Assembly (NCBI RefSeq): GCF_017351175.1
Contig: NZ_JAFMPN010000012.1
Location: 1-64,000, forward strand
Length of the DNA stretch: 64,000 bases
Origin: Desulfovibrio sp. Huiquan2017
GTDB taxonomy: Bacteria; Desulfobacterota; Desulfovibrionia; Desulfovibrionales; Desulfovibrionaceae
Direction of reading: 5' to 3'
Shown piece after piece: positions 2,944 through 25,689 of this stretch. The notes under the pieces were generated by a model. The model saw only the letters and a program-made list of their open reading frames with translations, searched no databases and was not told where the DNA came from. The first letter of the stretch is position 1. Each line of letters begins with the position of its first letter. The translations under genes were made by a program, and so were the position numbers.

Positions 2944-3051
2944 GGCCCTATCCTGAAATGTGATGCCTCTTGTTTAACTGTGCTAGAAATAGCTTCAGCT
3001 TTTTTGTTTTGAGCAACCATTTTGCGTACATCGCTTGTTAGCTTGGGCGGC

Positions 3052-3276
3052 ATGAAAACACATAAAACACAACTCTCTGGTTTGAAGATCCTGAATGTCA
3101 ACGAACTCGCCGACCTTCTCGGTATGACTAGCGCGGCTGTCCGTAGCCATTGGCAACGACGTAACTATGAGTCCATACCCCGTCCGGTTCATTTCGGTCG
3201 CAGGCTTGGTTGGCCAGTCCCGGTCATCGAGGAGTGGCTTCAAAAGAAAATCGAAGCTGACTCGATCTGGCGGTGA
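3052..3276 (+). CDS. AlpA/MerR-type helix-turn-helix excisionase-like protein
   Basis: 74 residues from the ATG at 3052, preceded by GGGCGG. A single winged-helix DNA-binding domain reads LNVNELADLLGMTSAAVRS, then PRPVHFGRRLGWP and VIEEWLQKK, the usual order of AlpA and excisionase (HTH_17) proteins. Such proteins direct recombination or activate phage-like genes in integrated elements. Two tyrosine recombinases of this island are possible partners. Confidence 0.75.
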   Translation: MKTHKTQLSGLKILNVNELADLLGMTSAAVRSHWQRRNYESIPRPVHFGRRLGWPVPVIEEWLQKKIEADSIWR

Positions 3277-5849: not shown

Positions 5850-6290
5850 TCAATGTGATCGGTTGAATTTTAGTGTTCCATGTCGAAGTGCGCAAAGGGC
5901 GCAGAGGTTGTGTTTGCTTCCCTTTCCGAGAGGGTGCCCGCAGCGTTCGCAGGTTGAAAAGGCTTCTTTTTTTGCCTGAATGAGTATCCATTTGAGTGAG
6001 TTGGGGAGCTTCGGTGCTTTGTGTATCGTATCTTTCATGTCCAGAGTACGGAATTGAACATCGAATCGGCCATTGCCCCAGCTGGAGGAGGGCTCAACAT
6101 GAAAGGCTGTAATCTTTGCCCCCGGATGGTAACGTTTGATTCGGGAAAACATTCTAATGATAATATTTGTCCAGCCTGCGGGAGCGATCGTTGAGATGTG
6201 GCGCGACAGGATATTTTCCCCGTAGGCCTCCACGTATCGAGTTAAAAAGGCGTCAGTCGCATGGCTGTTACTGGTTTGCGGACGTCGCAT
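5850..6290 (-). CDS. Hypothetical protein with C-terminal zinc ribbon
   Basis: 146 residues with a GGAGGG ribosome site. The first 23 bases overlap the end of the coupling-ATPase gene, so the two are co-translated. The C-terminus carries CERCGHPLG and CALCA, likely one zinc site. The rest is not recognised. The overlap suggests an accessory role to the ATPase. Confidence 0.75.
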   Translation of the reverse strand: MRRPQTSNSHATDAFLTRYVEAYGENILSRHISTIAPAGWTNIIIRMFSRIKRYHPGAKITAFHVEPSSSWGNGRFDVQFRTLDMKDTIHKAPKLPNSLKWILIQAKKEAFSTCERCGHPLGKGSKHNLCALCALRHGTLKFNRSH

Positions 6291-10500: not shown

Positions 10501-11782
10501 CGTCACCCGAGGTGTCCTCGATCGATTCCGCACCGCCGTTGTCCTTGGCTATGCAAACGGTGTGCAACAGTTCCTGCCAGGAAGCCCCGGGGTTTTGCTC
10601 GAGAATTGCCAGCAGGTCGAGGAAGGCCTTGATGGTGTTGCGGGGAGTTCGAAAGTAGTCTTGGCCGATGGTGTTGTTGCAATGCTCAAGAAATTTCGTC
10701 AAGGCGTCATCCGGCAAGGCGTAAGCTTCTTCACTACCGCTTGCGAAAACATGGCGCAGCCGCTCCAGAAGTACATACATATCCTCCGGCGTAAGGTTTG
10801 CCAGATTGATGACAGGGCCGCTCATATCTACATAGTGGCCCGAAGCGAAGGTGTTCAGGGCGAGCCGTGATTGAAGGGCTTCATAACTGAACAACCCTCG
10901 CCTGGTGTCCAGAAGGAAATCAGGCGTGCCTCCCATGAGGAAGGCAAGACCTTCGCAATTGGCTTGCAGGCAATCGTTCAGTATCCGTAGCAGTTGTTCG
11001 TAGTTGTTCTTGCGGCTGACGGAGTTGCTGATTTTGTAGAGGTTGACCATTTCGTCTATACAGACAAGCAAACCTCCGTATCCGGCAAGTCGTACGAATT
11101 GGGACAGGATTTTCAAGTGGTCGTACATTGATGCGTCATCGACAAAGGTCCTGACGCCGAGGGCGGCCCGGGCGTCGGTCTTTGTCGTGAATTCTCCTCG
11201 TAGCCAACGGATCGCATTCCCCTTGGCCGCCTCGTCTCCCGAGTCATGGCCTTCCCAATACGCATTGATGACGTCGGCAAAATCATAGCCGCCGACCAGT
11301 TCCGTCAAACTTTGAAGACGGGAGTGAATGACTTCGCTGGGCTGTAGTCCGTTTGTCTTGGACTCCTGAATTGCCGTTGAAATGAATTTTTCAACGACCG
11401 AGGGCAGGGCTCCCCCTTCGGCCTTTGCGCGTGTGGCAAGATTCCTGACGAGCTCTCGGTAGAGAGATTGAGTTTGACCGGTGGATGAGTATAGTCGACG
11501 TTCCGGGGTCATGTCCGCGTGAACCGTTACCAGCTTTTTCTCTAAAGCCACGGTCCGCACCAGGTTCATGAAAAAGGTTTTTCCCGACCCATATTCGCCG
11601 ATCACCATCCGAAAGGAGGATCCGCCGTCGGCAACCGTATCGATGTCTTGCAGCAGGCTTTTCACTTCCAAGGCTCGGCCGACCTGCACATGTTGAAGGC
11701 CGATTCGAGGGACGACGCCGGATCGAAGGGATTTGATTATCGCATCGCGCTCTTTGGGGCGGAGTTTTTTTGTGTCGCTCAT
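10475..11782 (-). CDS. sngB: BrxD/DUF2791-type ATPase, Shango SngB-like
   Basis: 435 residues. Walker A is GEYGSGKTFF and Walker B is GLLVCIDEMVNL; RALEVKSLLQDID and FLMGGTPDFLLD are typical of the BREX-associated P-loop family (DUF2791). The start codon overlaps the TerB gene stop by 4 bases and the helicase begins inside its 3' end, so the three are translationally coupled. It probably acts as a regulatory or loading ATPase for the helicase on phage DNA; that role is inferred from family and context. Confidence 0.85.
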   Translation of the reverse strand: MSDTKKLRPKERDAIIKSLRSGVVPRIGLQHVQVGRALEVKSLLQDIDTVADGGSSFRMVIGEYGSGKTFFMNLVRTVALEKKLVTVHADMTPERRLYSSTGQTQSLYRELVRNLATRAKAEGGALPSVVEKFISTAIQESKTNGLQPSEVIHSRLQSLTELVGGYDFADVINAYWEGHDSGDEAAKGNAIRWLRGEFTTKTDARAALGVRTFVDDASMYDHLKILSQFVRLAGYGGLLVCIDEMVNLYKISNSVSRKNNYEQLLRILNDCLQANCEGLAFLMGGTPDFLLDTRRGLFSYEALQSRLALNTFASGHYVDMSGPVINLANLTPEDMYVLLERLRHVFASGSEEAYALPDDALTKFLEHCNNTIGQDYFRTPRNTIKAFLDLLAILEQNPGASWQELLHTVCIAKDNGGAESIEDTSGDDELTTFRI

Positions 11783-14007
11783 GCCAGCATCTCCTCAAGG
11801 ACTTCTCGGTTCACTTCTATGTTCTCTTCATCAAAAAGCACTTCGTCATCGAAATTATCAAGCGCAGCATCATTCAATGATTCCAACACGCCGGAGGGCA
11901 TCAAGCCGAATTTTTCAGCCAAAGCGTTGAAGCTGTCCTTGTCCCAGGAGTCCTGTTCGCCGAGTTCGACAAGGATGTCTTTGTACGGTGCGCCAAGCCC
12001 ATAGAAATCAGGGGCTTTTTCTGCTTCGGGTTCCGGTTCCGCGACATCATCCGTGAAAACGTCTTCCAGCAGTTCGGCGACCTCCTTCGTCTGTTCACGC
12101 TTGAGACGCAGACGGTCGGCATCAAGCTTGACGTCGGCTTCGGGACTTGCGCCTGGAGCAGGCGGGATGGAATAGCCGGTCTTGCCGGTGTCCGCATCTT
12201 TTACGGTAACAGGTTGGCTGTCGCCGTTGGCGAGGAAACGGTGGATGTGGGTCTGGACATCCTTCGGCTCCATTCCCATGGTTTTGTATATCTTCTCCAG
12301 AATCGTTATTTCCTTGGGGTGAATGACTCCATCCGCTCCGGCCACACTGATCAGGAAATCGGCCACTTTTTCGCGTTGCGCCGCACTGAGCCCGGCCAAT
12401 TTTGCCTTCATGCCGGCCATGCTCGGCGGACGGGCAATGATCCATTCGAAAAAGGCGGTGAGCCGCAAGGTCTCTGTCGGGCTCAAACCCAAGGATGAAG
12501 CCAGATGAGAATTCAGGGCCGAACGCTCTTCTGGCGAGACGTCTCCATCTGCGGCCGCGACCAGTCCCGTCAGATGTACGAGGGCAATGGCCTGATGATA
12601 GCCTGTGCCGGGAGCCTCCTCTGTACCTTCCGGCAATTTGAAAAGGATGATCTCATCTCCGGCTGCGGGAGTGCGGCCTCCACGCCGGGGATCGGGCTCC
12701 ATTCCAATCCCCAATGCGCCAAGAATGTTGGCCGTTTGGCTGGCTTCCGCCTTGGTGAGCTTGCCGGAGGTCTTGGTCGGCCACATTTCGATCAGTGCGT
12801 TGACCTGGGCGGTCCCCATGTCCTTGCCAGCCAACGCGCTGTTGCAATACTGCCGGAGGGCGTCCAGCTCTGCGGATTTGCGTTTCATGGCGATGGAACC
12901 GGGCAGGAGGGCGATGCCCGCAATTCCTTTTGCGGCTTCGGGGTCCTTGCCCATAAGGCGGCTGTAAGCCTCCAGTTCCGACATGCTTTGGTCCACAAGT
13001 TTCCAGAGATTGCCGAGAGGACGTTTGAGGCCACTTGGGTCCGGAATGTCAACATCAGAGCTGAATCCTCGAAGGGATGAACTGGCGGGATGATATTCAA
13101 GTCTGATCTTTTTCTTGTTGGGGGGAACGACCATCCCTTCGCCGAATTTTTCCTGGTAAAGAGTCTTGAAGAGGAAAGCGAATTCGTGCGGACAACGCTT
13201 TGCCGGTACCCGCAATCTGGTTTCCGGGTCTCTGAGTACCCATTCCAGAGCCAGATTCCAAGGTATCGGTTTCCCCTCGGCAACGTTTCTGCCAAGTTCT
13301 ATTGTGAAGCTTGGCGGATATATTCCCCTGGCGATTTTGTTGGGATTGATTTCCGATTTGTGGGTGCCGTCTCCGATCAGAACACTGACAAGCCCCAAAA
13401 AGTTTTCGGAGTATTGCCTGAACGAGCGGTTGTCGCCGTAGATTGCAAGAAGCTCACTCGCCTCGTCGCGTATCCGGAGCAATTCTTCATTCCCCGGCTT
13501 GCTGTGCAACACCCGTCTTTCAAGACCATAAAAGAACAGGAAGACATAACCTATATACGCACCTTCGACCCGACGCCCTTTGGCAAGCCAGTCGATGTAC
13601 GCAGCACGTGCTTCTGGTGAGATCCGACTGTACGAAGGCCAGTAGGACATTCCGAAATTTTCCGTGCACGATCTGTCGGAGCTTCTGGGCAGTTCGGGGT
13701 TGATGAGGGCCGGATCGGCGCCGTAGCCGTTCAGTGTGCCAAGTCCAGTGCCAACGTAGAGCATTCCGCCTTTGATGGTGTGTCCGTATATCTCGACAGA
13801 CTGGCCCGGAGGAATCCAGCATTGCTCGTCGGATTGTGTCGCTTTAAAATTGTAATCATCATAATCGTCATCGGAATAGGTGACTCGGACTTCGATGCTG
13901 CTGGTGAATTCTTCGAGCTGTTGCTCGGCCTTCTTCTTGGCGGATGCCTTTTTGATGAAGTGGACTATGAGCCAGATTATCAAGACTGCAACGATGGCAT
14001 TTCCCAT
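11779..14007 (-). CDS. sngA: Membrane-anchored TerB-domain protein, Shango SngA-like
   Basis: 742 residues. An N-terminal transmembrane helix (AIVAVLIIWLIVHFI) is followed by a basic stretch. A TerB-N-like region contains WIPPGQSVEIYG and YVGTGLG. A central TerB fold (about residues 460-600) contains HLTGLVAAADGDVSPEE and ISVAGADGVIHPKEI, the two acidic metal-type motifs. An acidic C-terminal region fits TerB-C. In Shango the TerB protein is the first of three genes, as here. The membrane anchor suggests the complex assembles at the inner membrane. Confidence 0.8.
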   Translation of the reverse strand: MGNAIVAVLIIWLIVHFIKKASAKKKAEQQLEEFTSSIEVRVTYSDDDYDDYNFKATQSDEQCWIPPGQSVEIYGHTIKGGMLYVGTGLGTLNGYGADPALINPELPRSSDRSCTENFGMSYWPSYSRISPEARAAYIDWLAKGRRVEGAYIGYVFLFFYGLERRVLHSKPGNEELLRIRDEASELLAIYGDNRSFRQYSENFLGLVSVLIGDGTHKSEINPNKIARGIYPPSFTIELGRNVAEGKPIPWNLALEWVLRDPETRLRVPAKRCPHEFAFLFKTLYQEKFGEGMVVPPNKKKIRLEYHPASSSLRGFSSDVDIPDPSGLKRPLGNLWKLVDQSMSELEAYSRLMGKDPEAAKGIAGIALLPGSIAMKRKSAELDALRQYCNSALAGKDMGTAQVNALIEMWPTKTSGKLTKAEASQTANILGALGIGMEPDPRRGGRTPAAGDEIILFKLPEGTEEAPGTGYHQAIALVHLTGLVAAADGDVSPEERSALNSHLASSLGLSPTETLRLTAFFEWIIARPPSMAGMKAKLAGLSAAQREKVADFLISVAGADGVIHPKEITILEKIYKTMGMEPKDVQTHIHRFLANGDSQPVTVKDADTGKTGYSIPPAPGASPEADVKLDADRLRLKREQTKEVAELLEDVFTDDVAEPEPEAEKAPDFYGLGAPYKDILVELGEQDSWDKDSFNALAEKFGLMPSGVLESLNDAALDNFDDEVLFDEENIEVNREVLEEMLA

Positions 14008-14083: not shown

Positions 14084-17000
14084 CTATGGTGATTTTTCTC
14101 CGAGTAGAGCTCCAAGCATTATCTCGGGTGTGGTTGTTTTGAATTCTCTTTGAGCTATGGGAAAGTACTTCATTTTCGCCCATAATTCCTTGTCCCCAAC
14201 GATAAAGCAGCGCTTTTTCGCACGAGTAATCGCGACATTGAGCAGATTGGGCTTTGACGAGGCCCATTGGGCTGCTCCGATCTTGGTGTCCCCGTCTGCG
14301 CCGAGGACCATAATGACGCAATCCTCTTCCTTGCCTTGGAAGGTGTGGACGGTCCCTATCCTCTCTTTGCACCAGTCGTGAAGCGTACGGTTGGGGGGCA
14401 CGACAGTCGCGCCGTAATTAGTCCAATCCTTTGTCAGCTTTTTCTGCAGCTCATTCTTTACGGCTTTAAAGGGCGATATGACATAGACCGCAGGGAGTTC
14501 TCCATAACGAATGAACGTGTCTATGATGAGTCGAACAACGAATTCAATTTGACCTGGAACAATCTGCTGTTTGCTGGTTGTTCCAGGGATGTGCACCCAA
14601 GAGCTTGCCACCGGCAAAGGGGGCTGATTGGGGGTAGATTTATGGGGAAGGCCGAATATCATTTTGCCTTCATATGCGATGTCGTTTGAAACGGAAAACA
14701 TAGGGTCTATGCACCGTCTGTGCACCCGCAAAGGGCTCCCGATCCATGTTTCGGTTTCCCCTGAGCCGGACGATGTGTAGGCTCCGTATTTGTTGCACGC
14801 ATCGGCTAGGTTTTGAGCCGAAACCGCATTCGGCGCGAAGCCGCCTTCTTTCGTATATGGTGAGAGTGCCGAAATTGGTCGTATCAAGTTGGCAGGGACC
14901 GTGAAGACCGGTTCGATTTGGAGCGGATCACCGACAACAACGGCATTTTGTGTCCGCCACAAGGCGCCAACTGCCGCTTGAGGAACGGCTTGACCGGCCT
15001 CGTCAATGAATAGCCAGCCAAGAGAATTGGAGCCGACGTCCTTGAATTGGTTCGCATAAGAAGCAAAGGTGGTCGAAACTACCGGCACGATCATAAAGAG
15101 GCTTTGCCAAATTGTGAGGGCATCGGATTCCTCAAGGCGGGCATGCCCTTTGAGATAGGTGCTGATAGCCATGATGTTGCCGCCGAAGCCTGCACCGCCG
15201 TTGGCCTTGTTTCTGCCGACGTCGGCAAGCCATGCTTCGTGCAGCGCGAGTGCCGCACCAAAGAGTTCCGTCCGGAGTGTTGAGAGCCGTTTGTCGTTCC
15301 AGAGTCCTCGTAATTGGAATGTGTCGGATTCGAGTTCGTCTGGGGTCCTGGGCACGTCGATGTCACTGAACTGTTGTTTGAGTCCGGCGAGTTTTGCCGT
15401 CTTATCATTCCATTCGTGACGTCGCATATTGAGCCGATTCGAGGCTTCCTCCCATTGGACGTTTATCTCCGTTTCTTGGTCGTGGAGTAGACCTAATTGG
15501 CTATCTACGGCGGTAATGTCCGCCTCCAGGCTTTTTCGCATCGACTTGAGGACACGTGCTTTGGATATGTATTCCCTGGCGGATGGACGTCGCAAAAGGC
15601 GGCTGAACCAACTGGGTTTCCGTTGATCGAGGATATGCCTGTCCTTTTCTGTCTGGAGAATGGCATGTCGGATTTCAGAGGCCTTTTGGCTGGTGTTCGC
15701 TATTTCTCTTTTGATATTTGCAGCTTCTTGCCTGCAAAGCTCAACCTTATGTAGCTCTGCACCAGTGTAAGTTGTTTCTGTTTGTTCAGCCAGTTCCTCC
15801 GTTGAATCGGCAAAGAACGCTCGCTTTTCAAGTTCCTCTTCCACTCGCTTCTGTTTGGACAGGAAGGCCGCTCTGGCCGCATCAACATTGGGCCCGTCGT
15901 AACGTTTTATCCAGTCGTAGATGGTCAGCAGGCCGAGCTCGTGAGCCGGGAGAGGGTTCCTGGGGTCTGGATAAAACGCAAAACCGTTGTTGAATTGTCT
16001 TCTGTTGTTGGCGTTCCCCAAGGCACAAGCTATGAGCCCCCATTGCGATTCATTTTCAGGAAGAGGCGTGAAGTGGTTCCCTTTGTTTCGGGTGGCGATT
16101 TTTTGGGCTGTAGGCTGGATATAGGTCCATTGCCGCCAACAGTCTCCCAGTGACGCCTGCTTGGGAAGCTCTCTGGATATGTTGTTGACTGCGGCGTTGT
16201 TTGACGAAGCGACGATCATTTCGAAACCGGCGAGCTCCGGTTTAAGGGCGCGGGTCCAAATCCCGTCCCCCAAAGGAATTTGTTTTTTGCCGTCAAAAGC
16301 GCATCCGGCTGTTTGGTAGGACGCCAGGATTTTGGCCCTCCGGACAATGTTTTCTGCGACAACGTCACGCAGCAAAGTTGTTTTGCCGGTCCCCGGAGGG
16401 CCGTTTACCGAAAAAATGCCGGATTCCTCATTGGCCTCAAAGGCCATGTTGATGGCGAACTGCTGCATAAGGCTCATCAAATGTTCCGGGGTGTCGAACC
16501 AATGCCCATGATTGAATAGCTTGGGGTGTAGCTTTTGCCGCAGCAACTGCCTGCCGTTGTTCGAGTATACGTCGATCCTTTCCGTTGGATTGCGCGGCGT
16601 GAGGAACTCGAACAATGAGCGAGATATCCTGCCCGCCTCGACGTCCTGTATTGCTCGCTCTATGTCTTGGATGAAAAAACTGTTGAGGATGTCTATCTCG
16701 GGTTCAACCGGGCTATTGGCATCTTGTCCATCGTCTCCGTCATTTCTTTCTGACCTTCGGTATGCCTCCTGCCACTGTATTAACCCAAGGGCCTTTTCAT
16801 CTTTCGGTGTGAATTGGGCCCATTCATACAGAAGGTTGCGCAGTCCGGTAACATCCTCTGCTGTCAGCGGGAGCGGAGTGTCTGCCTGACCTCGTTGGGT
16901 TGCGAAGTTTTGAAGCATTTTGACCAACCGCCCTTGAGCCAATGAGAATTCCCTGGCGTTCAGCCCCGGTAGTCCAGAGCTTTGAACCGTTCCCAATGCC

Positions 17001-17545
17001 CATGGTAAAGTCGAAATCGAGATTTCATCGAAAAGAGGTTCCTTGTGCTCGTTGAGTTTAATCTTTGCAAAGCAAGTGGCCCCCTCTAAACTCCCTCGTG
17101 CCTCATTTTCGTATTCATCAGTTTGCGTTGGCTTCAGGATACGATTGCTGATCAAAGAAATCTCTTCTTTGTCAAACACGCCAAGGAATAAACCGTACCT
17201 GGGAGCCTTGTCTGCTGCGCACTCCGGAAAGGGGAACATCTCCGATTCGGCATGGAGCGAATTTTCGAGTAGCCAGTTTACTTGTTTATAACGGTGCGTG
17301 TCTTTGACAACGCTTCCATCAAGATCAAACGGGATGAAGAATTCAACTTTATGCCATGAATTGAGGATGGCGAGGAGACGTTCTTTATCGGATTCAGTCA
17401 GGGTGATGCTGCTGTCTTTTTTCATTTCAAAACCTTGGGATCGATCTTGGAGGGGGGTATTTGTCGAGGAGAATTCTGCGGTAGCGTCTTTTCGTCTAAA
17501 AGCTTTAGCCTCACCCAAAACCAACAGAGGCAGGAGTGTGGGCAT
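14084..17545 (-). CDS. Large SF1 (UPF1/Dna2-like) helicase with coiled coil
   Basis: 1153 residues from ATG 17545, or 1113 from ATG 17425, which has AAGG just upstream. Walker A is VNGPPGTGKTTLLRD near residue 390. Later motifs include IDEAGQAVPQAA, VVGDPLQIEPVF, GTVHTFQGKEED and LLNVAITRAKKRCFIVGD, the full UPF1-like SF1 set. A long charged helical insert of about 200 residues (LCRQEAANIKREIANTSQK and onward) lies between the motifs and probably forms a coiled coil. It is the first gene of the operon, 76 bp before the TerB gene. Canonical Shango lacks it, so it may be an added effector. Confidence 0.85.
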   Translation of the reverse strand: MPTLLPLLVLGEAKAFRRKDATAEFSSTNTPLQDRSQGFEMKKDSSITLTESDKERLLAILNSWHKVEFFIPFDLDGSVVKDTHRYKQVNWLLENSLHAESEMFPFPECAADKAPRYGLFLGVFDKEEISLISNRILKPTQTDEYENEARGSLEGATCFAKIKLNEHKEPLFDEISISTLPWALGTVQSSGLPGLNAREFSLAQGRLVKMLQNFATQRGQADTPLPLTAEDVTGLRNLLYEWAQFTPKDEKALGLIQWQEAYRRSERNDGDDGQDANSPVEPEIDILNSFFIQDIERAIQDVEAGRISRSLFEFLTPRNPTERIDVYSNNGRQLLRQKLHPKLFNHGHWFDTPEHLMSLMQQFAINMAFEANEESGIFSVNGPPGTGKTTLLRDVVAENIVRRAKILASYQTAGCAFDGKKQIPLGDGIWTRALKPELAGFEMIVASSNNAAVNNISRELPKQASLGDCWRQWTYIQPTAQKIATRNKGNHFTPLPENESQWGLIACALGNANNRRQFNNGFAFYPDPRNPLPAHELGLLTIYDWIKRYDGPNVDAARAAFLSKQKRVEEELEKRAFFADSTEELAEQTETTYTGAELHKVELCRQEAANIKREIANTSQKASEIRHAILQTEKDRHILDQRKPSWFSRLLRRPSAREYISKARVLKSMRKSLEADITAVDSQLGLLHDQETEINVQWEEASNRLNMRRHEWNDKTAKLAGLKQQFSDIDVPRTPDELESDTFQLRGLWNDKRLSTLRTELFGAALALHEAWLADVGRNKANGGAGFGGNIMAISTYLKGHARLEESDALTIWQSLFMIVPVVSTTFASYANQFKDVGSNSLGWLFIDEAGQAVPQAAVGALWRTQNAVVVGDPLQIEPVFTVPANLIRPISALSPYTKEGGFAPNAVSAQNLADACNKYGAYTSSGSGETETWIGSPLRVHRRCIDPMFSVSNDIAYEGKMIFGLPHKSTPNQPPLPVASSWVHIPGTTSKQQIVPGQIEFVVRLIIDTFIRYGELPAVYVISPFKAVKNELQKKLTKDWTNYGATVVPPNRTLHDWCKERIGTVHTFQGKEEDCVIMVLGADGDTKIGAAQWASSKPNLLNVAITRAKKRCFIVGDKELWAKMKYFPIAQREFKTTTPEIMLGALLGEKSP

Positions 17546-17738: not shown

Positions 17739-18470
17739 ATGAACCGATTGGATATGTGCCTAGAGGTCTTGCAGGCCGTGAAAAAGAAAATGCACGTTAG
17801 GGATATCGCCGGGGCTTTGGCCACTCGTTACCCAGCTGAATTCGGCACGGAAGATACAGAAACGCTTGCCCGAAAAGTTAGTCAATCCATCAGCAATCAC
17901 ATTCGCAGTGCCGGGCGTAACTCCAAGATCAGTAAAGTTCCCAATGGCCGAGGCGGGCATCTCTCAGGCATGTTCAGAGCCAAACAAAAGCGGAAGAAAA
18001 CCACCCTAGCTAAGCCTCCGCAGGTTTCGAACGGATATACCGGCAAGGCTGGCGAGTACGGCTTGTTGAGTGAGCTTCTTTTTATGGGTTACAATGCTTC
18101 GATCATGACAGTTGATGAGGGAATCGATGTCGTCGCATCTAGAGATAATAAGTATTTTCATATTCAGGTTAAAACGGCAAACAGCAATCCTCAAGGGAAA
18201 TTCCAGTTCACCATCTCTGCAAAAAGCTATAAATCTTATGATGCGTCTACGACGTTCTACGTCCTCATTACCCACCATTTCATATGCAACGCATGGAGAA
18301 GCGACTATATAGTATTTCAAAGTGGAGATATCACAAAACTTATTGCAACTGGTGTTGTCGCAGCCGGTAAGCAGCATTCGTTTTTGGTTTTGTATGAGGG
18401 CAACAGGTGTTTATTAAATAACGGTAATGATATAACATATCATTTGAACAATTTTGATCCCATGAAATAG
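17739..18470 (+). CDS. HARE-HTH plus PD-(D/E)XK nuclease-like protein
   Basis: 243 residues with a GGAGG ribosome site. Residues 1-65 resemble the HARE-HTH domain (MHVRDIAGALATRYP...LARKVSQSISNHI), which links chromatin-like or modified-DNA recognition to nucleases. After a basic linker, residues 100-215 form a restriction-endonuclease-like core: Glu106 (GKAGEYG), Asp130 (DEGIDVVA) and Gln143-Lys145 (HIQVKTA). It is divergent from the SF1 helicase across 193 bp. It may belong to the defence module or be an independent defence gene. Confidence 0.7.
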   Translation: MNRLDMCLEVLQAVKKKMHVRDIAGALATRYPAEFGTEDTETLARKVSQSISNHIRSAGRNSKISKVPNGRGGHLSGMFRAKQKRKKTTLAKPPQVSNGYTGKAGEYGLLSELLFMGYNASIMTVDEGIDVVASRDNKYFHIQVKTANSNPQGKFQFTISAKSYKSYDASTTFYVLITHHFICNAWRSDYIVFQSGDITKLIATGVVAAGKQHSFLVLYEGNRCLLNNGNDITYHLNNFDPMK

Positions 18471-18601: not shown

Positions 18602-18814
18602 ATGCAGAAGAAGAATGATGAGCACATGGAGAAGTTTGGGTTTGCCGTTGTTTCCGACGAAGACGGCATGGACAGCGTCGCCTACACGGCTTCCTGTTCC
18701 GGCAGTCGTTCCGATTGCTGCACCAGAACCTGCTCTGCGGATGCCAACTTCGCGGAGAGCGCTGAGGCTTGGGAACAGTATCTGGCAGTCAAGGGCGGAC
18801 AGGTTCAGTACTAG
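18602..18814 (+). CDS. Cys-containing 70-residue peptide, putative modified-peptide precursor
   Basis: AGAGGA lies 5 bases before the ATG. The first 25 residues are charged and leader-like. The middle holds Cys32, Cys39, Cys40 and Cys44 with many Ser and Thr (SCSGSRSDCCTRTCSAD). The end is AEAWEQYLAVKGGQVQY. There is no signal peptide, membrane segment or recognised domain. It is directly followed by two RRE-bearing E1-like enzymes, the classical order for a ribosomally synthesised, post-translationally modified peptide. Alternatively it could be a protein-conjugation tag. Neither is proven by sequence. Confidence 0.65.
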   Translation: MQKKNDEHMEKFGFAVVSDEDGMDSVAYTASCSGSRSDCCTRTCSADANFAESAEAWEQYLAVKGGQVQY

Positions 18815-18828
18815 CAGGCGAAATCGTA

Positions 18829-19953
18829 ATGACGCATATTTTGGAAGCCTCCGCCCCGGAACTTCGAGACGGGGTGGAGGTTTTTCTTTATCCTGAGAAG
18901 GAAGGGATCTGCCAGGTCCTCTTCCTTTTTTTGTCCAACAGACGGCGTTTGCGCATTGAGTGCAAACCGGCCTTTGCGACTCTGCTCAAGGAATTATCCA
19001 AGCCGCTGCCATTAACGGATTCCCTGAACCATTCCGGGCTGGTCATGGACGAAGAAACCGAGGCCTTTCTCTCCTTTCTTGAGACTGAAGGAATCGTCAC
19101 CTTGTCCGACCCGCTCGCAACGGACCTGCTTCCCGTCGAGTATGTGGAGCAATACAAGCGCCAGTTGTATTTCTTGCTGGATATCCTCAAGTCGCCGCAA
19201 AAGGCTCATGAAGTCCAAAAGCGGATTTTTGACGCGCACATAACCGTTTTCGGCCTCGGCGCCGTGGGCAGCGGCATCCTGCAACAGCTCTGCATGATGG
19301 GCTTTAGGCGATTTACCCTCATCGACTGCGCCGATGTCGAGGAGAACGACATAGCCCGGACGCCGTACCGGATTGCCACACAGGTGGGAATCCCCAAGAC
19401 GGAGGCTGCCAAGGCGTTGGCGGCGGATTTCGCCTTTGATCCCGAAGTCGAGTTGCATAATGTCACCCTCAGGACGGATACCGACCTCGACGAGTTGGTC
19501 CAGGGAACGACGCTCATCATCAACACCACCGATCAACCCTACGTCGGCTACACCAACATCAAGCTTTCGCGGTATTCCCTGCAGCACGACATACCCGTGC
19601 TGGCTGCCGGTGGATTCGATGCCCATCTCGCATCTCTGGGGGAGTTGCTGATCCCCCATGTGACGCCGTGCGCGGATTGCTATGCCACGTTTTTTCATGA
19701 GAGCCTGAAGGATTGGAAGCCGATCCCCCACCCGGTCAAGGAGCGCGAAGGCTGGTTCGGCGGGTTGGGCAGCCTGTCCACGTTCAGCGCCTCCACGGCA
19801 GTGCTGGATATCCTGGGCTACTTCATGAACCCGGAAGACCGAAAGGCGGCTCCCGGCGGGCGGGGCGAATTTCTTTTTCATGATTACAGTCTCGATACCT
19901 TTGTCGTTGAAAGGGACAAGGAGTGCCAGTTCTGCGGGGAGGGGCGGAAATGA
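18829..19953 (+). CDS. ThiF/E1-like adenylating enzyme 1 with RRE-like N-terminus
   Basis: 374 residues from ATG 18829, chosen because it lies 14 bases after the peptide stop; the longer ORF would overlap the peptide gene. Residues 1-90 resemble a winged-helix recognition element. The E1 domain shows GLGAVG (142-147), Asp166 (TLIDCADVEENDIAR), Arg177, Lys190 and Asp235 (NTTDQP). Zinc ligands are C281/C284 (CADC) and C366/C369 (CQFC). The family activates a carboxylate as acyl-AMP. No classical catalytic Cys loop is evident, which favours MccB-like or cyclodehydratase-partner chemistry over a full ubiquitin E1. Confidence 0.85.
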   Translation: MTHILEASAPELRDGVEVFLYPEKEGICQVLFLFLSNRRRLRIECKPAFATLLKELSKPLPLTDSLNHSGLVMDEETEAFLSFLETEGIVTLSDPLATDLLPVEYVEQYKRQLYFLLDILKSPQKAHEVQKRIFDAHITVFGLGAVGSGILQQLCMMGFRRFTLIDCADVEENDIARTPYRIATQVGIPKTEAAKALAADFAFDPEVELHNVTLRTDTDLDELVQGTTLIINTTDQPYVGYTNIKLSRYSLQHDIPVLAAGGFDAHLASLGELLIPHVTPCADCYATFFHESLKDWKPIPHPVKEREGWFGGLGSLSTFSASTAVLDILGYFMNPEDRKAAPGGRGEFLFHDYSLDTFVVERDKECQFCGEGRK

Positions 19954-21065
19954 GTCGATACAGCGATGAGCGCTTCCGCCTCCGCCCATCGGTTTCGTTC
20001 GTGCCCATGCCGCAGGAGGGGACCTACCAGTTCTTTGTTTCGGACATCAGGCAGAGTTTCAACCTGGCCTTTGCCGATGAGGATTACGTCACGATCCTTT
20101 CCAACCTGGATGGGCGTCTGCCGTATGCCAAGCTGGCGGAAGCCTATGCCCTCACTGACCGGCAGAGCGTCGGTTTGGAACGGCTTTTCGAGGTCCTGAT
20201 TGAACGGTGTGCCGTGGAGGATGCGCGAGTTGTGGCGTCGCGCGAAACCGACCCGTTTCGGCGGGTCAAGACGTTCATCGGCTCCTATGTCCCGTATTAC
20301 GATGTGGAATCCGTCTGGCAGCGGATAGCCGAAAGCCATGCGGTCGTGATCGGGGCCGGAGGCGTGGGGAGTTGGGTCGTCTCCCTGCTGGCCCAGATGG
20401 GTATCAGGCATTTCACGCTGCTCGACGACGACGTGGTCAAGCCGCACAACCTGAACCGCTCCCTGTTCACCAAGGGGGATGTGGGCAGCCTCAAGACCTT
20501 GGCCCTGGAAAAGATGCTCAACTCGCGACGGGAGGGGTATTACACGGTCCGGACCATTCAAGAGAAGCTGAAAAGTTCGGAGCGGCTGATCGCGTTGTTG
20601 AAGGGCGACATGCAGCCGCAGACGGTTCTGATCAATTGCGCGGATTTTCCTTCGGTGGCCCACACCTCGGCAATTATCAACGAGGCGGCCTTTGCGCTCG
20701 ACCTGCCCTACATCATTGCCGGCGGCTACAACATGCACCTCAGCCTGGTGGGGCCGACGATCATCCCAGGCAAGACGCCGTGCTTCCATTGCATCTCGCA
20801 CGGCATGGACCAGCTCAAGGTGGCCGAGATCGAGGGGGCGGAGCGCATCGTCAAGGAGCACCGCAACCTCGGCAATCTGGCCCCCCTGGCGGCGCTCTCC
20901 GCCTCCTTTGTGGCCAACGAGTGCCTGAAGCTGTTGCTCGGATTGCCGAATCTGCAGCCGACCATGACCAGCAAGCGCGGCGAGTTCAATTTTTTCACAA
21001 AGAAGTTGGTGCTGGAAGAGTATGGCGTGTGGAATGAGTGTCCGTATTGCAGTGGGAGTAGCTGA
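19950..21065 (+). CDS. ThiF/E1-like adenylating enzyme 2 with RRE-like N-terminus
   Basis: 371 residues. The ATG at 19950 overlaps the previous stop (ATGA) and has GGAGGGG upstream. Residues 8-95 (FRLRPSVSFVPMP...YVTILSNLDGRLPYAKLAEA...) look like a PqqD-type winged helix. The E1 core has GAGGVG (135-140), LLDDDVVKPHNLNRS with Arg170, Lys182 and Asp232 (NCADFPS); zinc ligands are C278/C281 and C364/C367. It is clearly divergent from enzyme 1, so the pair probably act as a heterodimer or in successive steps rather than being a recent duplication. Confidence 0.85.
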   Translation: MSRYSDERFRLRPSVSFVPMPQEGTYQFFVSDIRQSFNLAFADEDYVTILSNLDGRLPYAKLAEAYALTDRQSVGLERLFEVLIERCAVEDARVVASRETDPFRRVKTFIGSYVPYYDVESVWQRIAESHAVVIGAGGVGSWVVSLLAQMGIRHFTLLDDDVVKPHNLNRSLFTKGDVGSLKTLALEKMLNSRREGYYTVRTIQEKLKSSERLIALLKGDMQPQTVLINCADFPSVAHTSAIINEAAFALDLPYIIAGGYNMHLSLVGPTIIPGKTPCFHCISHGMDQLKVAEIEGAERIVKEHRNLGNLAPLAALSASFVANECLKLLLGLPNLQPTMTSKRGEFNFFTKKLVLEEYGVWNECPYCSGSS

Positions 21066-22219
21066 TGGGACGTTATGCAAAATTATTGCTTGGAGTGACA
21101 GGTGGTTTCTTGGTGTCAGCCTTTGTTTTTTTTATGGCTCGCCAAATTGATTTTGTTTTTCTTAAAGCGTTTGAGCCTTCAATCAACGAACTCGTCCAGA
21201 AGGAGTATCTTAACAATTTTAGTGGATATCGTGATTTCGTGACAGTTGTGACGGGATTACTTGCACTTATAGTGGGGGCAATAGGCATAGGTGCATTTAT
21301 TTCATTTCGGAGATTTAAAGAAGAAGAGGAAAAGGTTACAGAACGAAGAAAACAGTTAGAAATGTTTCTTTTGATTGAGGAAGCCAGAAACATTATGGAA
21401 TATGAATGGGGATTTCTTTCTGCTATCAAATTATACGACAAGGCTGAGGATAAGTATGATGGTCATTATCTTCTTTATTCGTTGAGAGGGGCTGCATATT
21501 ATATCGCCGCGAGAAAAAACCTTAGGTTGGCAACAGGAAAGGAAGATTTGTTTTTTAATAAAGCAAAGCGAGACTTTCGAAGTGCCCTGAAAAAGAATAA
21601 AAAATCAATGCTCGCACAGTATGGATTGGGTGAGGTTCTGTTTCAAGAAGCTTTAAGCAAACGACCTACCATAGAGGGATTATCTTTTGATTGGGATAAG
21701 GTAAACACTTTTGATTCAGTAGATAATGATTCAGATATACTCAAAGAAGTAAGAAACACTTTGCAACTAAAGGTTGGCGGGGACTATTCAGGGGCAAATA
21801 GGAAGACGGTTGAAAAATCTATTTTACTCATCAAAGATGCCATTTTTAATGGATATGACTCTGTAGTTGGAAATCACACGTTAGGAACGATGTATGAATC
21901 GTTAGATGATATCACTAATGCTTATAAATGCTATAAAAAAGCTTATGGTAATGGATATATAGCAGCTGGGTATCAATACTGTTATCTATGGTTAAGGAAG
22001 AACTGTTCTACTGGTTGTACACAGGTTGAAAATGAGATAGTTGAGATATTAGAAGACGTTAGTATGGATGATGATGATTTCAGCAAAGCTGCATATGCCT
22101 TGCTTTGGTTTGTCTTTCTGAACGATGACAACAAGTTTAATGAGGCAAAAAGAGTTTTTAGTGAAACTGATAAGCATACTATAGAAAATTTGTTTTGTAT
22201 AACTAGTAAAATATCCTGA
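21065..22219 (+). CDS. AT-rich membrane protein with TPR/Sel1-like repeats
   Basis: 384 residues; the start overlaps the previous stop by one base (TGATG). Two N-terminal membrane segments (LLLGVTGGFLVSAFVFFMA and VVTGLLALIVGAIGIGAFI) are followed by a helical repeat region with TPR-like units (LGTMYESLDDITNAYKCYKK). The DNA is strikingly AT-rich compared with the GC-rich genes on both sides, and codon choice differs, suggesting later insertion into the operon. It could be a cargo, export or immunity protein. Confidence 0.8.
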   Translation: MGRYAKLLLGVTGGFLVSAFVFFMARQIDFVFLKAFEPSINELVQKEYLNNFSGYRDFVTVVTGLLALIVGAIGIGAFISFRRFKEEEEKVTERRKQLEMFLLIEEARNIMEYEWGFLSAIKLYDKAEDKYDGHYLLYSLRGAAYYIAARKNLRLATGKEDLFFNKAKRDFRSALKKNKKSMLAQYGLGEVLFQEALSKRPTIEGLSFDWDKVNTFDSVDNDSDILKEVRNTLQLKVGGDYSGANRKTVEKSILLIKDAIFNGYDSVVGNHTLGTMYESLDDITNAYKCYKKAYGNGYIAAGYQYCYLWLRKNCSTGCTQVENEIVEILEDVSMDDDDFSKAAYALLWFVFLNDDNKFNEAKRVFSETDKHTIENLFCITSKIS

Positions 22220-22226
22220 ACTGGCC

Positions 22227-24398
22227 ATGCTCACCCTCCGCAGCATAGAAACCAACAACCTCAAGTCGGTTGACGTTTCCATCCCGTACGGACAAATAAC
22301 CGCCGTTGTCGGCGGGAGCGGGGCGGGCAAGACTTCGCTGGCGTTCCATACGCTCTATGCGCTCTGCAAGAACGAACTCGATACCATTTCCGGCATCCCG
22401 GCCAGCCACCGGCCCAAGGTCCGGGATTATGCCAACCTGCTCCCGGCCATCGGCCTGAAGCAGAAGAACGCCAACGTCAATCCCCGGTCGAGCGTCTTCA
22501 CCTATCTCGGGCTCGACAAGTTGTTCCTGCCCCTGTTCCTGCAGGCCAATCCGGACATCAAACGGAACATCCTGGCCCAGAACAATCCGGCTAACCATTG
22601 CCCGGCCTGCGAGGGGCTCGGCGTGGTCTACAGGCCCGATCCAGCCCGGATCGTCGATCTACACAAGCCACTTGCGGACAAGCCCTTCCTCTCCTGGAAC
22701 AACTTCCTCTCCAATCATTATTATCCTTTGCTGGAAGCCTTCTGCGGCGCGCGTAGCATCGACATGGGCAAGTCCCTTTCCCAGTTGCCGTCACAACAGC
22801 AGGAATTGCTGCTTCATGGGGCCGACGATAAGCAATTTCAGGTCAAGTACAAGCAAAAGAACCGCTACCGGCAGAAATGGTTTCCTTTTGTGGGCGCTAT
22901 CCGGGAGATTCAGGAATGCTGCGACAACTTGCAAGTGCCGGGAAATCGGCAAAAGGCCAAGTCGTACATCTCCGAACAGGTCTGCCCGAAGTGTCATGGG
23001 GCCAGGTTTGCGGAGTATCTTTCAGAGTACACGCTCAACGGCATGACGATCCACGACATCCTCTTGTCGAGCTTTGATGCGCTATTCCCTTTCATTCAAT
23101 CCATCCCGGCCCGTGAATTTGCCGTAAACAAGCTGACGGCCTTGGTCGCCAATGTGGTCAGGAACAACCTGGGCTACCTCGCCCTGATGCGTTCGATACC
23201 GTCCCTCTCCGGGGGTGAGTTCCAGCGGCTGCAACTGGCCTCGGTGCTCAGCTCGGACTTCACGAACCTGCTCTACGTGATCGACGAGGTCTCCTCCTCG
23301 CTACACGTCGCGGAATACCCGGATGTCATTTCCCAACTCAAGGCGTTGAGGGAGCGCAATTCCACCCTGGTCATGGTCGAACACGAACTGGAATTCATCG
23401 AGAAGGCCGACAACCTGATAGCTCTTGAGGACGGCAGGGTGATCGACTCAACGGATTGGCTTCAGCGACAGCGGGAGGTCTCCGTTGACCGCATTAAAGT
23501 CGAGCCGCGAGGCGCTATGGAATTCACCGTTCACGACGTCCACAATATACGCCACCTCGATGTCACCATCCCAATGGGCTGCCTGATCGGCTGCTGCGGT
23601 GTGTCCGGCTCCGGCAAGTCCTCGTTTGCCGAGGCAATATCGGGCAGGAGTGGCGTTGAATACATCAGCCAGGGAACGATCCAGGGGAACAGCAATTCAA
23701 CGGTGGCGACCTACCTCAAGCTCATGCAGCCGATTGATTCGTTTCTGTGCAAGGCCCTGGGTGCTCCATTGAAGACGTTCCTGTTCAACAACAGCGCCAG
23801 TCAATGCCCGGTCTGCGAGGGCAAGGGATATGTGGAGCAGGAAGCCTCATTCGGCCATGCGTTTCGTTCTGTCTGCGAAGCCTGCGAGGGCAGGCGCTAC
23901 AGCCCGGAAGTACTTGCGTACCGATTCAATTCGCTTTCCGTTCACGACATCCTGACGATGACGGTCGCGGACTTGTCGGCGGCTGGGGTGTTCGCGGAAA
24001 GCAGGAAGATCGCCGCCAAATTGGAGGACATGATCAGCATCGGATTGGGGCACCTGAGCCTCTTCAGGGCCACCAGCGAACTTTCGGGCGGGGAGGCGCA
24101 GCGGATCAAGCTCCTGTCCCGAGTGAAGGCCAATCTCAAGAATACCTTCCTCATCATCGACGAGCCTGCCAACGGCCTGGAGCGTCACGATACAAAGCGT
24201 CTGATCGGATTCCTGGACAGATTGCTCACCAAGGCAAAGGGGATCATGGTCATCGAGCACAACCTGTTCTTGCTGAAAAGCATGGACTACATTTTGGAGT
24301 TCGGCCCTCGCGGCGGCGACAATGGCGGCGACATTATTTTTCAGGGCCGCATTGAGGATATGGACGGTTCGGAGTCTGTCCTCAAGATTTTTGTTTAG
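22227..24398 (+). CDS. Short UvrA-like tandem ABC ATPase
   Basis: 723 residues against about 940 for UvrA. Two ABC modules: Walker A GGSGAGKTS (29-37) and GVSGSGKSS (458-466), each with an LSGGE signature and Walker B (LLYVIDEVSS, FLIIDEPANGL). Zinc pairs are C125/C128 with C253/C256, and CPVC with CEAC in the second half. The UvrB-binding and insertion region between Walker A and the first zinc pair is missing, as in the class of UvrA-like proteins that protect antibiotic producers (DrrC type). The gene starts 7 bases after the TPR gene. It is likely a DNA-lesion sensor or self-resistance factor; that role is inferred. Confidence 0.85.
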   Translation: MLTLRSIETNNLKSVDVSIPYGQITAVVGGSGAGKTSLAFHTLYALCKNELDTISGIPASHRPKVRDYANLLPAIGLKQKNANVNPRSSVFTYLGLDKLFLPLFLQANPDIKRNILAQNNPANHCPACEGLGVVYRPDPARIVDLHKPLADKPFLSWNNFLSNHYYPLLEAFCGARSIDMGKSLSQLPSQQQELLLHGADDKQFQVKYKQKNRYRQKWFPFVGAIREIQECCDNLQVPGNRQKAKSYISEQVCPKCHGARFAEYLSEYTLNGMTIHDILLSSFDALFPFIQSIPAREFAVNKLTALVANVVRNNLGYLALMRSIPSLSGGEFQRLQLASVLSSDFTNLLYVIDEVSSSLHVAEYPDVISQLKALRERNSTLVMVEHELEFIEKADNLIALEDGRVIDSTDWLQRQREVSVDRIKVEPRGAMEFTVHDVHNIRHLDVTIPMGCLIGCCGVSGSGKSSFAEAISGRSGVEYISQGTIQGNSNSTVATYLKLMQPIDSFLCKALGAPLKTFLFNNSASQCPVCEGKGYVEQEASFGHAFRSVCEACEGRRYSPEVLAYRFNSLSVHDILTMTVADLSAAGVFAESRKIAAKLEDMISIGLGHLSLFRATSELSGGEAQRIKLLSRVKANLKNTFLIIDEPANGLERHDTKRLIGFLDRLLTKAKGIMVIEHNLFLLKSMDYILEFGPRGGDNGGDIIFQGRIEDMDGSESVLKIFV

Positions 24399-24506: not shown

Positions 24507-25514
24507 CTACCGTGATCTTCCGGCGAGTCTCTCCGCCAATCGATCCGCCCTTAAATGGGTATACCTCTTTAGCATCTGCAAATTCTTGTGCCCGGTGATT
24601 TCCGCGATTTCCAGCAAGTCCAGGTCCGTATTTTCAAACAGCCTCGATGTCGCCTCGTGCCTAAGGTCATGAAAGGTTAAATCCTTAATTTCGGCCTCAG
24701 CCCTTGCTCGGCGCATTGCAATCGTGATCGCATTTTCACTCATGCCGAAGACCGACCCTGAGAGCTGTCGAGGTATGCTTTTTAAGATTGCAATGGCTTT
24801 CGGAGAGAGGGGGACAGTCCGTTCAGATTTGTTTTTCGTATTTTGCAAGTATGCGGTTTTGCGCTTTAGGTCGACATGGTCCCATCCTAGATTGGCTATT
24901 TCCGAGCGGCGCATTGCCGTTTCAATAGCGAATTGAACCACTGGCTTAAAGCTTTTACCGCAAGCATTGATCAGCCTCTCTTCTTCGCCCTTTTCTTCTC
25001 CATTTGCGGCAGGCTGAAGACGCCTAGTTCTTCCTCCGCTTAGCTTTGGCTTCCTTGCCCTTTTTATGGGGTTGCCTAGGCTTTCCATTCCCCATTCGAT
25101 TGCGGCCACTTCAAACACCCTTGAGATAGTTGCCAAGTCGAGACGAATGGTATTGGGCTTGACGCCATCTCCTTCACGCTCCTTGATGAAGTCGGAGATG
25201 TCCTTCGTGCGGATAGCGGCCATGGTTTTGTTGGCGATGTCCCGTTTTTGGATCGCCTTCGCTCTGCGTGTTTCGTTGGCTATCATTTTGAGGCGTGGGA
25301 TGTATTCCTCAATGAATCGGTCAAGCGCCTCTTTGAGCGTTGTGCTCTCAGCCTCTTTGCGTGAGACAAAGTTGCCTCGATTCATTTCCGATTCGATGTC
25401 TTGAATCCAAGCATCGGCGTCGGCTTTGTACTTGAAAGATTTGCTTTGTGTAGCCTGACCTTTCTTGCGGATACGGACTTCCCACTTCTGGCCTCGTTTT
25501 CGGATGGTCGCCAT
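24507..25514 (-). CDS. Tyrosine integrase of the tRNA-Thr-associated island
   Basis: 335 residues from ATG 25514 with AGGAGC upstream. The N-terminal Arm/SAM-like region reads KRGQKWEVRIRKKG. The catalytic set is complete: Arg in TAMRRSEIANLGW, Lys in NTKNKSERTVPL, FHDLRHEATSRL, EITGHKNLQ and nucleophile Tyr in LKRYTHLRA. It lies about 100 bp from the 3' end of tRNA-Thr, the classic place for an integrase using that tRNA as attachment site. Confidence 0.92.
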   Translation of the reverse strand: MATIRKRGQKWEVRIRKKGQATQSKSFKYKADADAWIQDIESEMNRGNFVSRKEAESTTLKEALDRFIEEYIPRLKMIANETRRAKAIQKRDIANKTMAAIRTKDISDFIKEREGDGVKPNTIRLDLATISRVFEVAAIEWGMESLGNPIKRARKPKLSGGRTRRLQPAANGEEKGEEERLINACGKSFKPVVQFAIETAMRRSEIANLGWDHVDLKRKTAYLQNTKNKSERTVPLSPKAIAILKSIPRQLSGSVFGMSENAITIAMRRARAEAEIKDLTFHDLRHEATSRLFENTDLDLLEIAEITGHKNLQMLKRYTHLRADRLAERLAGRSR

Positions 25515-25573
25515 GGTTGCTCCTTTTCTTGATTTCACTGGAGCAAAATTGGAGCATCCTGTCAAATGGGCAC

Positions 25574-25613: not shown

Positions 25614-25689
<76 letters not shown>

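Follow-up and report, generated by a model that had tools for sequence, protein, structure and literature searches.

Analysis of a 64,000-nucleotide stretch of Desulfovibrio sp. Huiquan2017 DNA (contig NZ_JAFMPN010000012.1, positions 1 to 64,000; called the window throughout) revealed an operon at 18602-24398 whose minimal unit is a small, cysteine-rich peptide gene followed by genes for two ThiF/E1 enzymes, E1a and E1b. We hold with moderate confidence that this operon represents a mobile, minimal E1 (ThiF-like) system of the ribosomally synthesized and posttranslationally modified peptide (RiPP) type, forming a new class, that acts inside the cell, probably against phages, with a short UvrA-like protein as DNA guard where one is present. 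The five genes of the window operon, all on the plus strand and almost end to end, are as follows.

18602-18814, plus strand: candidate precursor peptide gene, 70 amino acids with four Cys residues, no Pfam match
18829-19953, plus strand: E1a, a ThiF/E1 enzyme (Pfam ThiF, 3e-24) with two CxxC pairs
19950-21065, plus strand: E1b, a ThiF/E1 enzyme (Pfam ThiF, 3.5e-35), joined to E1a by an ATGA overlap
21065-22219, plus strand: tetratricopeptide repeat (TPR)-like gene encoding a putative membrane protein, with a 1-base overlap with E1b and subthreshold Pfam TPR matches
22227-24398, plus strand: short UvrA-like double ATP-binding cassette (ABC) ATPase, 723 amino acids, with Pfam UvrA_DNA-bind and ABC_tran matches

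These coordinates and Pfam matches agree with an initial annotation of the same DNA, which had described a 70-residue, four-Cys peptide, two E1-like genes, a membrane TPR gene, and a short UvrA gene, most of them joined by start/stop overlaps. Its treatment of all five as one unit was abandoned: both the TPR-like gene, confined to the clade of the window among the loci compared, and UvrA, with no copy beside the operon in 14 of the 32 loci, are optional. The defense-island setting, the asymmetry of the two E1 enzymes, and an attenuator-like hairpin, all described below, are findings beyond that annotation.

The 32 loci with a full-length E1a comprise the window, two plasmids, and 29 genomes. 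A plasmid protein search with E1a returned two loci ordered peptide-E1a-E1b-UvrA, without the TPR-like gene, in Moraxella osloensis and Acinetobacter johnsonii, both on plasmids typed as mobilizable. A scan of 84,980 species genomes with the E1a alignment, which was guided by E1a rather than the peptide and reaches fairly close E1a relatives only, yielded 30 loci, 29 of them with full-length E1a; one is in a Desulfovibrionaceae metagenome-assembled genome and the others are in Pseudomonadota. The system is rare, since samples of a phylum and of a class each returned only the seed: of 297 genomes sampled from the phylum of the window and 369 sampled from the class of an Acinetobacter seed, the remaining 296 and 368, respectively, had no E1a match. 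No match was found to E1a in phage records by tblastn, to E1a or its alignment among IMG/VR viral contigs, or to a Pantoea copy among 20,395 Escherichia coli records by blastn. More distant E1 matches occurred in 14 of 16 plasmid records, and the four regions opened (L006 to L009; fetched regions carry L numbers) show one E1 each and no such peptide.

The peptide gene is real rather than a chance open reading frame, because it lies upstream of E1a in 32 of the 32 loci, and every copy ends in Gln-Tyr. Across the 28 copies that were aligned, which range from 63 to 75 residues, F14, C32, S37, C39, C40, C44, W57, L61, G66, Q69, and Y70 are invariant, so that all four Cys, the Trp, and the C-terminal Gln-Tyr figure among the fixed positions of the alignment that the initial annotation had asked for; the same QY ending was seen by eye in the remaining four copies (L018, L021, L022, and L025). 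The peptide divides into a leader with the invariant Phe14, a core of the form C-S-x-x-R-S-x-C-C-T-R-x-C-[ST], in which the Cys residues and the second Ser are invariant and the remaining positions nearly so, and a tail of the form A-W-x2-[YF]-L-x4-G-x2-Q-Y at the extreme C terminus. For example, the window peptide and its counterpart on the Acinetobacter plasmid are identical over 13 residues of the core, even though the E1a enzymes of these loci are only 28% identical. In seven of seven pairs, which are a selection rather than all pairs, nonsynonymous divergence (dN) of the peptide was well below synonymous divergence (dS, at least 0.4), and E1a had the higher dN. Between loci, E1a distances and peptide distances correlated with an r of 0.86 over 26 loci, a value inflated by relatedness. 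The initial annotation had named E1 pairs without any small peptide gene, or a peptide disrupted in close relatives, as evidence against a modified peptide. Both were sought, and the outcome did not count against it; besides the 32 loci where the peptide is kept, the sole decayed locus (L038, an uncultured Helicobacter, 2261-3259) has both genes degraded, with E1a truncated and the peptide missing the last core Cys and the QY end. Co-occurrence in every intact locus, an invariant core and C terminus, MccB-like E1 enzymes, and a precursor-like operon layout support the proposal made in that annotation of an E1-driven, RiPP-type modified peptide.

Of special interest is the asymmetry of the two enzymes. 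The initial annotation had given both E1s complete ATP-site residues, which is accurate for E1b, where D159, D161, N167, R170, K182, and D232 are all kept in 29 of 29 aligned sequences. It does not describe E1a: among 30 aligned sequences, D166, K190, and D235 are present in all and R177 in 28, but Lys occupies the second Asp position in 24, and Asp, Asn, or Ser stands at the Asn position (15, 9, and 6 sequences). The Arg, Lys, and Asp of ThiF-like RiPP enzymes are found in both families (all three in 29 of 29 E1b sequences; Arg in 28, Lys in 30, and Asp in 30 of 30 E1a sequences). Two CxxC zinc pairs per enzyme had likewise been described; the window E1a has both, whereas the fourth ligand Cys of E1b is replaced in 8 of 29 sequences. 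Because only E1b keeps the whole ATP site, these residues suggest that E1a and E1b form a catalytic/partner pair with one full and one degenerate site. Heterodimeric eukaryotic E1s show the same kind of pairing. Between loci, distances of E1a and E1b correlated with an r of 0.98 over 29 loci, again inflated by relatedness.

Family profiles compared with solved structures placed MccB best for both enzymes (1.3e-34 for E1a and 8.6e-47 for E1b), followed by PaaA for E1a and by MoeB and ThiF for E1b, with Cap2 far lower. The winged-helix, PqqD-like N termini proposed in the initial annotation, which would be RiPP recognition elements (RREs), were not recognized by Pfam, and sequence profiles cover them only in part, leaving the first ~57 residues of MccB unmatched. 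AlphaFold models of E1a and E1b (mean predicted local distance difference test scores of 84.9 and 87.4), however, had MccB as their best Foldseek match over about its whole length, including its N-terminal peptide clamp (template modeling scores of 0.60 to 0.70 by query length, root mean square deviations of 5.4 to 7.4 Å), with PaaA next. Because the models match MccB over about its whole length, a predicted N-terminal peptide-clamp (RRE-like) domain was accepted for both enzymes. With E1 fused to a modeled N-terminal RRE and a precursor gene beside E1 in 32 of 32 loci, the operon shares these features with ThiF-like E1 RiPP systems.

A terminator-like hairpin stands just behind the peptide gene.

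18844-18892, plus strand: terminator-like hairpin with a 15-bp stem, −28 kcal/mol, and a T-rich tail, overlapping the start of E1a

Using a strength of at least −11 kcal/mol and a T-rich stretch within 95 bases as the criterion, and counting near-copies, such hairpins follow the peptide gene in 25 of 32 loci, compared to 9 of 32 after E1a and 12 of 96 at random places. Their sequence varies between clades while their position is constant; the Pseudomonas loci have no strong hairpin. Because the window hairpin overlaps the first E1a codons, its conservation in L010 and L011 may owe something to coding constraint. The element is probably an attenuator, and partial termination there would fit the production of more precursor than enzyme. 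Such attenuated precursor/enzyme layouts are common in RiPP operons. Sigma-70 promoter signals in the window region showed no excess (5 found versus 4.7 expected) and were rejected.

The short UvrA-like protein of the window matches TIGR00630 (3.1e-125, under the curated cutoff) and is the sole match in this genome at an E value of 1e-70. As the initial annotation had proposed, the UvrB-binding domain is gone: residues 96 to 111 span positions 124 to 280 of UvrA 2r6f, with 14 residues in place of ~155. Walker A, signature, and Cys pairs are invariant in three of three aligned sequences, the anatomy of DrrC-type proteins. A short UvrA gene is adjacent in 18 of the 32 loci and is divergently oriented in the four Pseudomonas loci. 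Among the matches listed in searches of 20 genomes or records, full-length short UvrA occurred at the operon only, with none in the genomes of L014, L015, L017, L018, and L026; in L011, L013, and L020 the contig stops shortly beyond the operon, which makes absence there uncertain. On an E1a tree, midpoint rooted for drawing and carrying long-branch warnings, UvrA is present in 15 of 16 rows of one clade and in 1 of 14 rows of the other, that one being the window; this distribution requires three changes. As the sole UvrA carrier of its clade, the window may have either kept an ancestral UvrA gene or regained one. The idea of a UvrA-guarded toxin in every case was rejected, and the initial annotation's claim that the product targets DNA cannot be extended to all members of the family, given that 14 of the 32 operons have no UvrA gene beside them.

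The TPR-like gene has two hydrophobic N-terminal stretches (read by eye) and weak TPR similarity. Among the loci compared, its homologs occur only in L010 (31% identity) and L011 (36%), the closest relatives of the window, in both right after E1b, and it is probably a clade-specific accessory membrane protein. A possible companion gene directly upstream of the peptide has a 62% identical counterpart upstream of the peptide in L011 and no match in the other loci compared.

17739-18470, plus strand: PD-(D/E)XK-nuclease-like gene with weak, subthreshold nuclease-family matches

The operon lies at the end of an island of lower G+C content, with values in 2-kb steps of 0.48 to 0.55 to its left and 0.60 to 0.68 to its right. 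Left of it on the same island are the genes of a Shango anti-phage system, ending ~4.6 kb away, and a helicase gene; the probable right end of the island is marked by an integrase gene and an adjoining tRNA gene.

8311-14007, minus strand: Shango system, consisting of SngA (11779-14007), SngB (10475-11782), and SngC (8311-10533), PADLOC E values of 2.9e-85 to 2.1e-261
14084-17545, minus strand: large helicase (AAA_11/AAA_12) between Shango and the operon, matching MkoC (PADLOC, 5.1e-69)
24507-25565, minus strand: tyrosine integrase (Phage_integrase, 2.7e-27), probable right island end
25614-25689: tRNA-Thr adjoining the integrase

A TrwB-like ATPase gene (Pfam, 1.4e-07; 6268-8016, minus strand) also adjoins the Shango genes. 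To place this setting in the family, proteins of at least 400 amino acids with a PADLOC E value of 1e-60 were taken as defense genes and counted within ~9 kb of 20 loci (L005, L010, L014 to L018, L022 to L024, L026 to L030, L032, L035 to L037, and L039). The count omits the window, L004, L011 to L013, L019 to L021, L025, L031, L033, L034, and L038, which are short contigs or near-copies, or in the case of L004 were left out for size. A defense gene was found at no fewer than 10 of the 20 loci, a lower bound from the 25 of 53 families listed, and in a single one of 16 random regions of 19 kb (one-sided Fisher test, P = 0.005), an enrichment, measured against random genome regions, of the kind that marks anti-phage systems. 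The controls scanned were L040 to L055 (16 of the 20 fetched), from seven genomes of the same set, and their sole match was Shango in L040 (506-6327), from the genome of L035 (Pectobacterium aroidearum). Defense neighbors were bacteriophage exclusion (BREX) in L005, type I restriction-modification in L010 and L014, a type III methyltransferase in L018, a cyclic oligonucleotide-based antiphage signaling system (CBASS) in L022, Mokosh/PDC-S37 in L028, TmtA in L029, RADAR in L030, Gabija in L036, and PDC-S37/Hhe in L039. The bare threshold gives at least 11 of 20 loci; a match in L027 to MzaA (7.1e-77) that covers one end of the protein was dropped, the protein being by eye a housekeeping sigma factor beside a DnaG-like gene.

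Further observations at these loci include, in the alphaproteobacterial copies, smaller genes for a CBASS cyclase and NucC (L018, 1586-3057) and a cyclase with a SAVED-HNH gene (L022, 12741-15662), and, in L028 (18219-19097), a frame related to the BrxL gene of L005 beside Mokosh-like and Hhe-like helicases. Beyond the core genes, neighbor families common to at least two clades comprise transposases and recombinases, genes that by eye encode integrases, and relatives of BrxL, of a type I methyltransferase, and of an Hhe-like helicase. One neighbor cluster shared by L020, L026, and L027 consists by eye of two-component signaling proteins.

These results can be assembled into a possible mechanism. 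The precursor of 63 to 75 residues would be bound via the RRE domains of both MccB-like E1s, and E1b would adenylate a peptide carboxylate, most likely that of the invariant C-terminal Tyr, with E1a as its partner in a heterodimer or for a second dedicated step. The ThiF-like RiPP enzymes MccB, PaaA, GrcB, EnfB, and IndF activate a carboxylate by adenylation for attack by a nucleophile (PMC12150305 and PMC12250964; these and the other papers given by PMC number are cited from the available portions of their text). Here the activated carboxylate would be captured by an invariant nucleophile of the same peptide, most likely a core Cys (forming a thiolactone, as with GrcB) or Trp57 (as with IndF). 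Intracellular action of the product is proposed because no exporter or protease gene recurs beside the operon, and the gene setting points to a role in defense against invading DNA, that of phages or of other kinds. In loci that have it, the UvrA-like ATPase would act on DNA, either as a shield for the host chromosome or as a sensor of DNA-bound product. Makers of DNA-binding compounds are protected by UvrA-like proteins that lack the UvrB-binding domain (PMC10413001), and DNA intercalators block phages (PMC13250531); by analogy, this suggests a DNA-active peptide used intracellularly and UvrA guarded in one branch. This step is the weakest because the other branch does without an adjacent UvrA. 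A more specific version, in which a heterodimeric E1 with one catalytic and one degenerate MccB-like subunit turns the Cys-rich peptide into a DNA-active warhead by cyclization at the C-terminal Tyr, with the UvrB-independent UvrA keeping the warhead off host DNA, is offered as a tentative possibility.

Several points weigh against the favored explanation. A control of random regions cannot separate "defense" from "any island cargo," the loci tested are not independent (Rhodobacterales and Pseudomonas include near-copies), and the controls come from only seven genomes. The Moraxella locus L004, outside the count, is annotated with insertion sequences and toxin-antitoxin genes and no defense gene. 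Lanthipeptide (bacteriocin) genes are likewise reported beside defense systems (PMC12715929); because they share such settings and islands carry mixed cargo, the neighborhood points to defense without proving it. UvrA is not essential, given the 14 loci where it is not adjacent, and short UvrA proteins are found on plasmids with no annotated E1 gene nearby. A generic terminator scan of the window region showed no excess (8 found versus 7.2 expected). Finally, the E1a-E1b heterodimer is deduced from residues, and the chemistry and the phenotype are those that we infer from the gene set and its relatives.

UvrA could instead be a sensor rather than a shield, detecting invading or damaged DNA and triggering release or activation of the peptide product. 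In the Pectobacterium locus L030 (10085-13375), E1b and UvrA are naturally fused in frame, with a small duplication where they join, whereas its near relative L031 has two overlapping genes; the fusion suggests a direct link to the enzyme, and the defense setting would suit a sensor. Against this, the 14 loci without an adjacent UvrA would need another trigger, and known short UvrA-like proteins act in self-resistance (PMC10413001), leaving a sensor role rather doubtful.

A classical exported bacteriocin or microcin-like RiPP, in which the E1 pair makes a secreted toxin, UvrA confers immunity, and host exporters and proteases are borrowed, has the precedent of MccB, which makes microcin C, and would be at home on the two mobilizable-typed plasmids. 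Bacteriocin cores usually diversify, but here the peptide core barely varies across distant hosts. Clusters that make DNA-binding compounds are known to carry UvrA-like self-resistance genes (PMC10413001), and the lanthipeptide genes beside defense systems (PMC12715929) show that bacteriocins can share this setting. The neighborhood is nevertheless strongly one of defense genes, and the proposed immunity gene is not adjacent in 14 of 32 loci. Further against export, no exporter or protease is found among the neighbor families that recur across clades, and a recurrent exporter like that of microcin C is lacking. The initial annotation had listed YcaO, an exporter, and a protease as absent; this fits the recurrence data and the lack of YcaO, as used by the azole/thioamide class, among 16 window proteins scanned with Pfam (1413-25565). 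Taken together, an exported toxin appears unlikely.

The operon might also encode a conjugation system like the ubiquitin-like E1 anti-phage systems, with the peptide as a tag activated at its C terminus and attached to protein or DNA. PADLOC E1-E2 models do match both enzymes (best 1e-18 for E1b and 2.4e-10 for E1a), and the invariant C-terminal QY and the defense setting also speak for this reading. These models match the shared E1 domain only, however, and the proteins of the window operon gave no E2, JAB protease, or ubiquitin-fold match; the peptide, short and rich in Cys, lacks a C-terminal Gly, and the nearest solved relative is the RRE-bearing MccB, with Cap2 far lower. E1-E2 conjugation was rejected for lack of partner genes in the window operon, and the wider conjugation reading is improbable. 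Least probable of all is a metal-handling or redox peptide whose Cys cluster binds metal while the E1 pair performs sulfur-carrier-type activation: four invariant Cys and the sulfur transfer served by ThiF/MoeB relatives speak for it, but no sulfurtransferase, metal transporter, or metal regulator recurs among the neighbors, the E1 models match the RRE-bearing MccB and PaaA above ThiF/MoeB, and Trp57 and the C-terminal QY show the same invariance as the Cys residues.

No description of the operon, the peptide motif, or a ThiF-plus-UvrA defense island was found in the open-access literature (bioRxiv not covered), and the available text of the review PMC12250964 and of the IndF paper PMC12150305 describes neither a two-E1, exporter-free class nor one with UvrA, in line with the initial annotation's statement that known RiPP classes do not cover the operon. 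UvrA and MccB are unmentioned in the available text of a structure-based RRE paper (PMC12710340). In the IndF paper, the survey of RRE-bearing ThiF enzymes sought precursor genes accompanied by proteases and a transporter (PMC12150305) and would likely have missed a class with two E1s and no exporter. For future work, the family offers a ready substrate with an invariant reaction site, raises through its unequal ATP sites the question of how paired bacterial E1s evolve, and allows a concrete test of the idea that bacteria produce modified peptides to fight phages within their own cells. A 2024 preprint by Shomar et al., cited in PMC13250531, reportedly proposed anti-phage lanthipeptides, a use of RiPPs for phage defense with different enzymes and chemistry.

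Microcin C (MccA/MccB) is the closest known system in sharing the RRE and E1 architecture, the best solved match of both E1s, and a small peptide substrate. Its precursors are mostly 7 residues (PMC6495379) with a modified C-terminal Asn (PMC12150305), unlike the Cys-rich peptides of 63 to 75 residues ending in Gln-Tyr found here with two different E1s and no recurrent exporter. In the GrcB thiolactone RiPPs (GRC), an RRE-E1 likewise acts on a Cys-bearing precursor near its C terminus (PMC12250964), but the present operon has two E1s and a midpeptide Cys cluster, and no radical SAM, stand-alone RRE, or transporter gene was seen alongside. IndF and the enterofaecin enzyme EnfB share C-terminal carboxylate activation and a Trp near the C terminus (PMC12250964 and PMC12150305); as far as the available text describes them, they are single E1s of streptococci and enterococci with transporter genes (and a peptidase for ind) and no UvrA. 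Pantocin A, whose PaaA has the RRE and E1 fold and is the next fold match after MccB, differs in having a single E1 that modifies internal Glu residues (PMC12250964) and a different precursor. DrrC, Ecm16, and MtrX are also UvrA proteins without the UvrB-binding domain inside biosynthetic operons, but they guard makers of DNA-binding compounds (PMC10413001), whereas here UvrA is an optional member of a peptide operon found mostly in Pseudomonadota. Placed among these systems by its genes and their predicted products, the operon appears to be a new class of E1 RiPP, of which the anti-phage role is the bold part.

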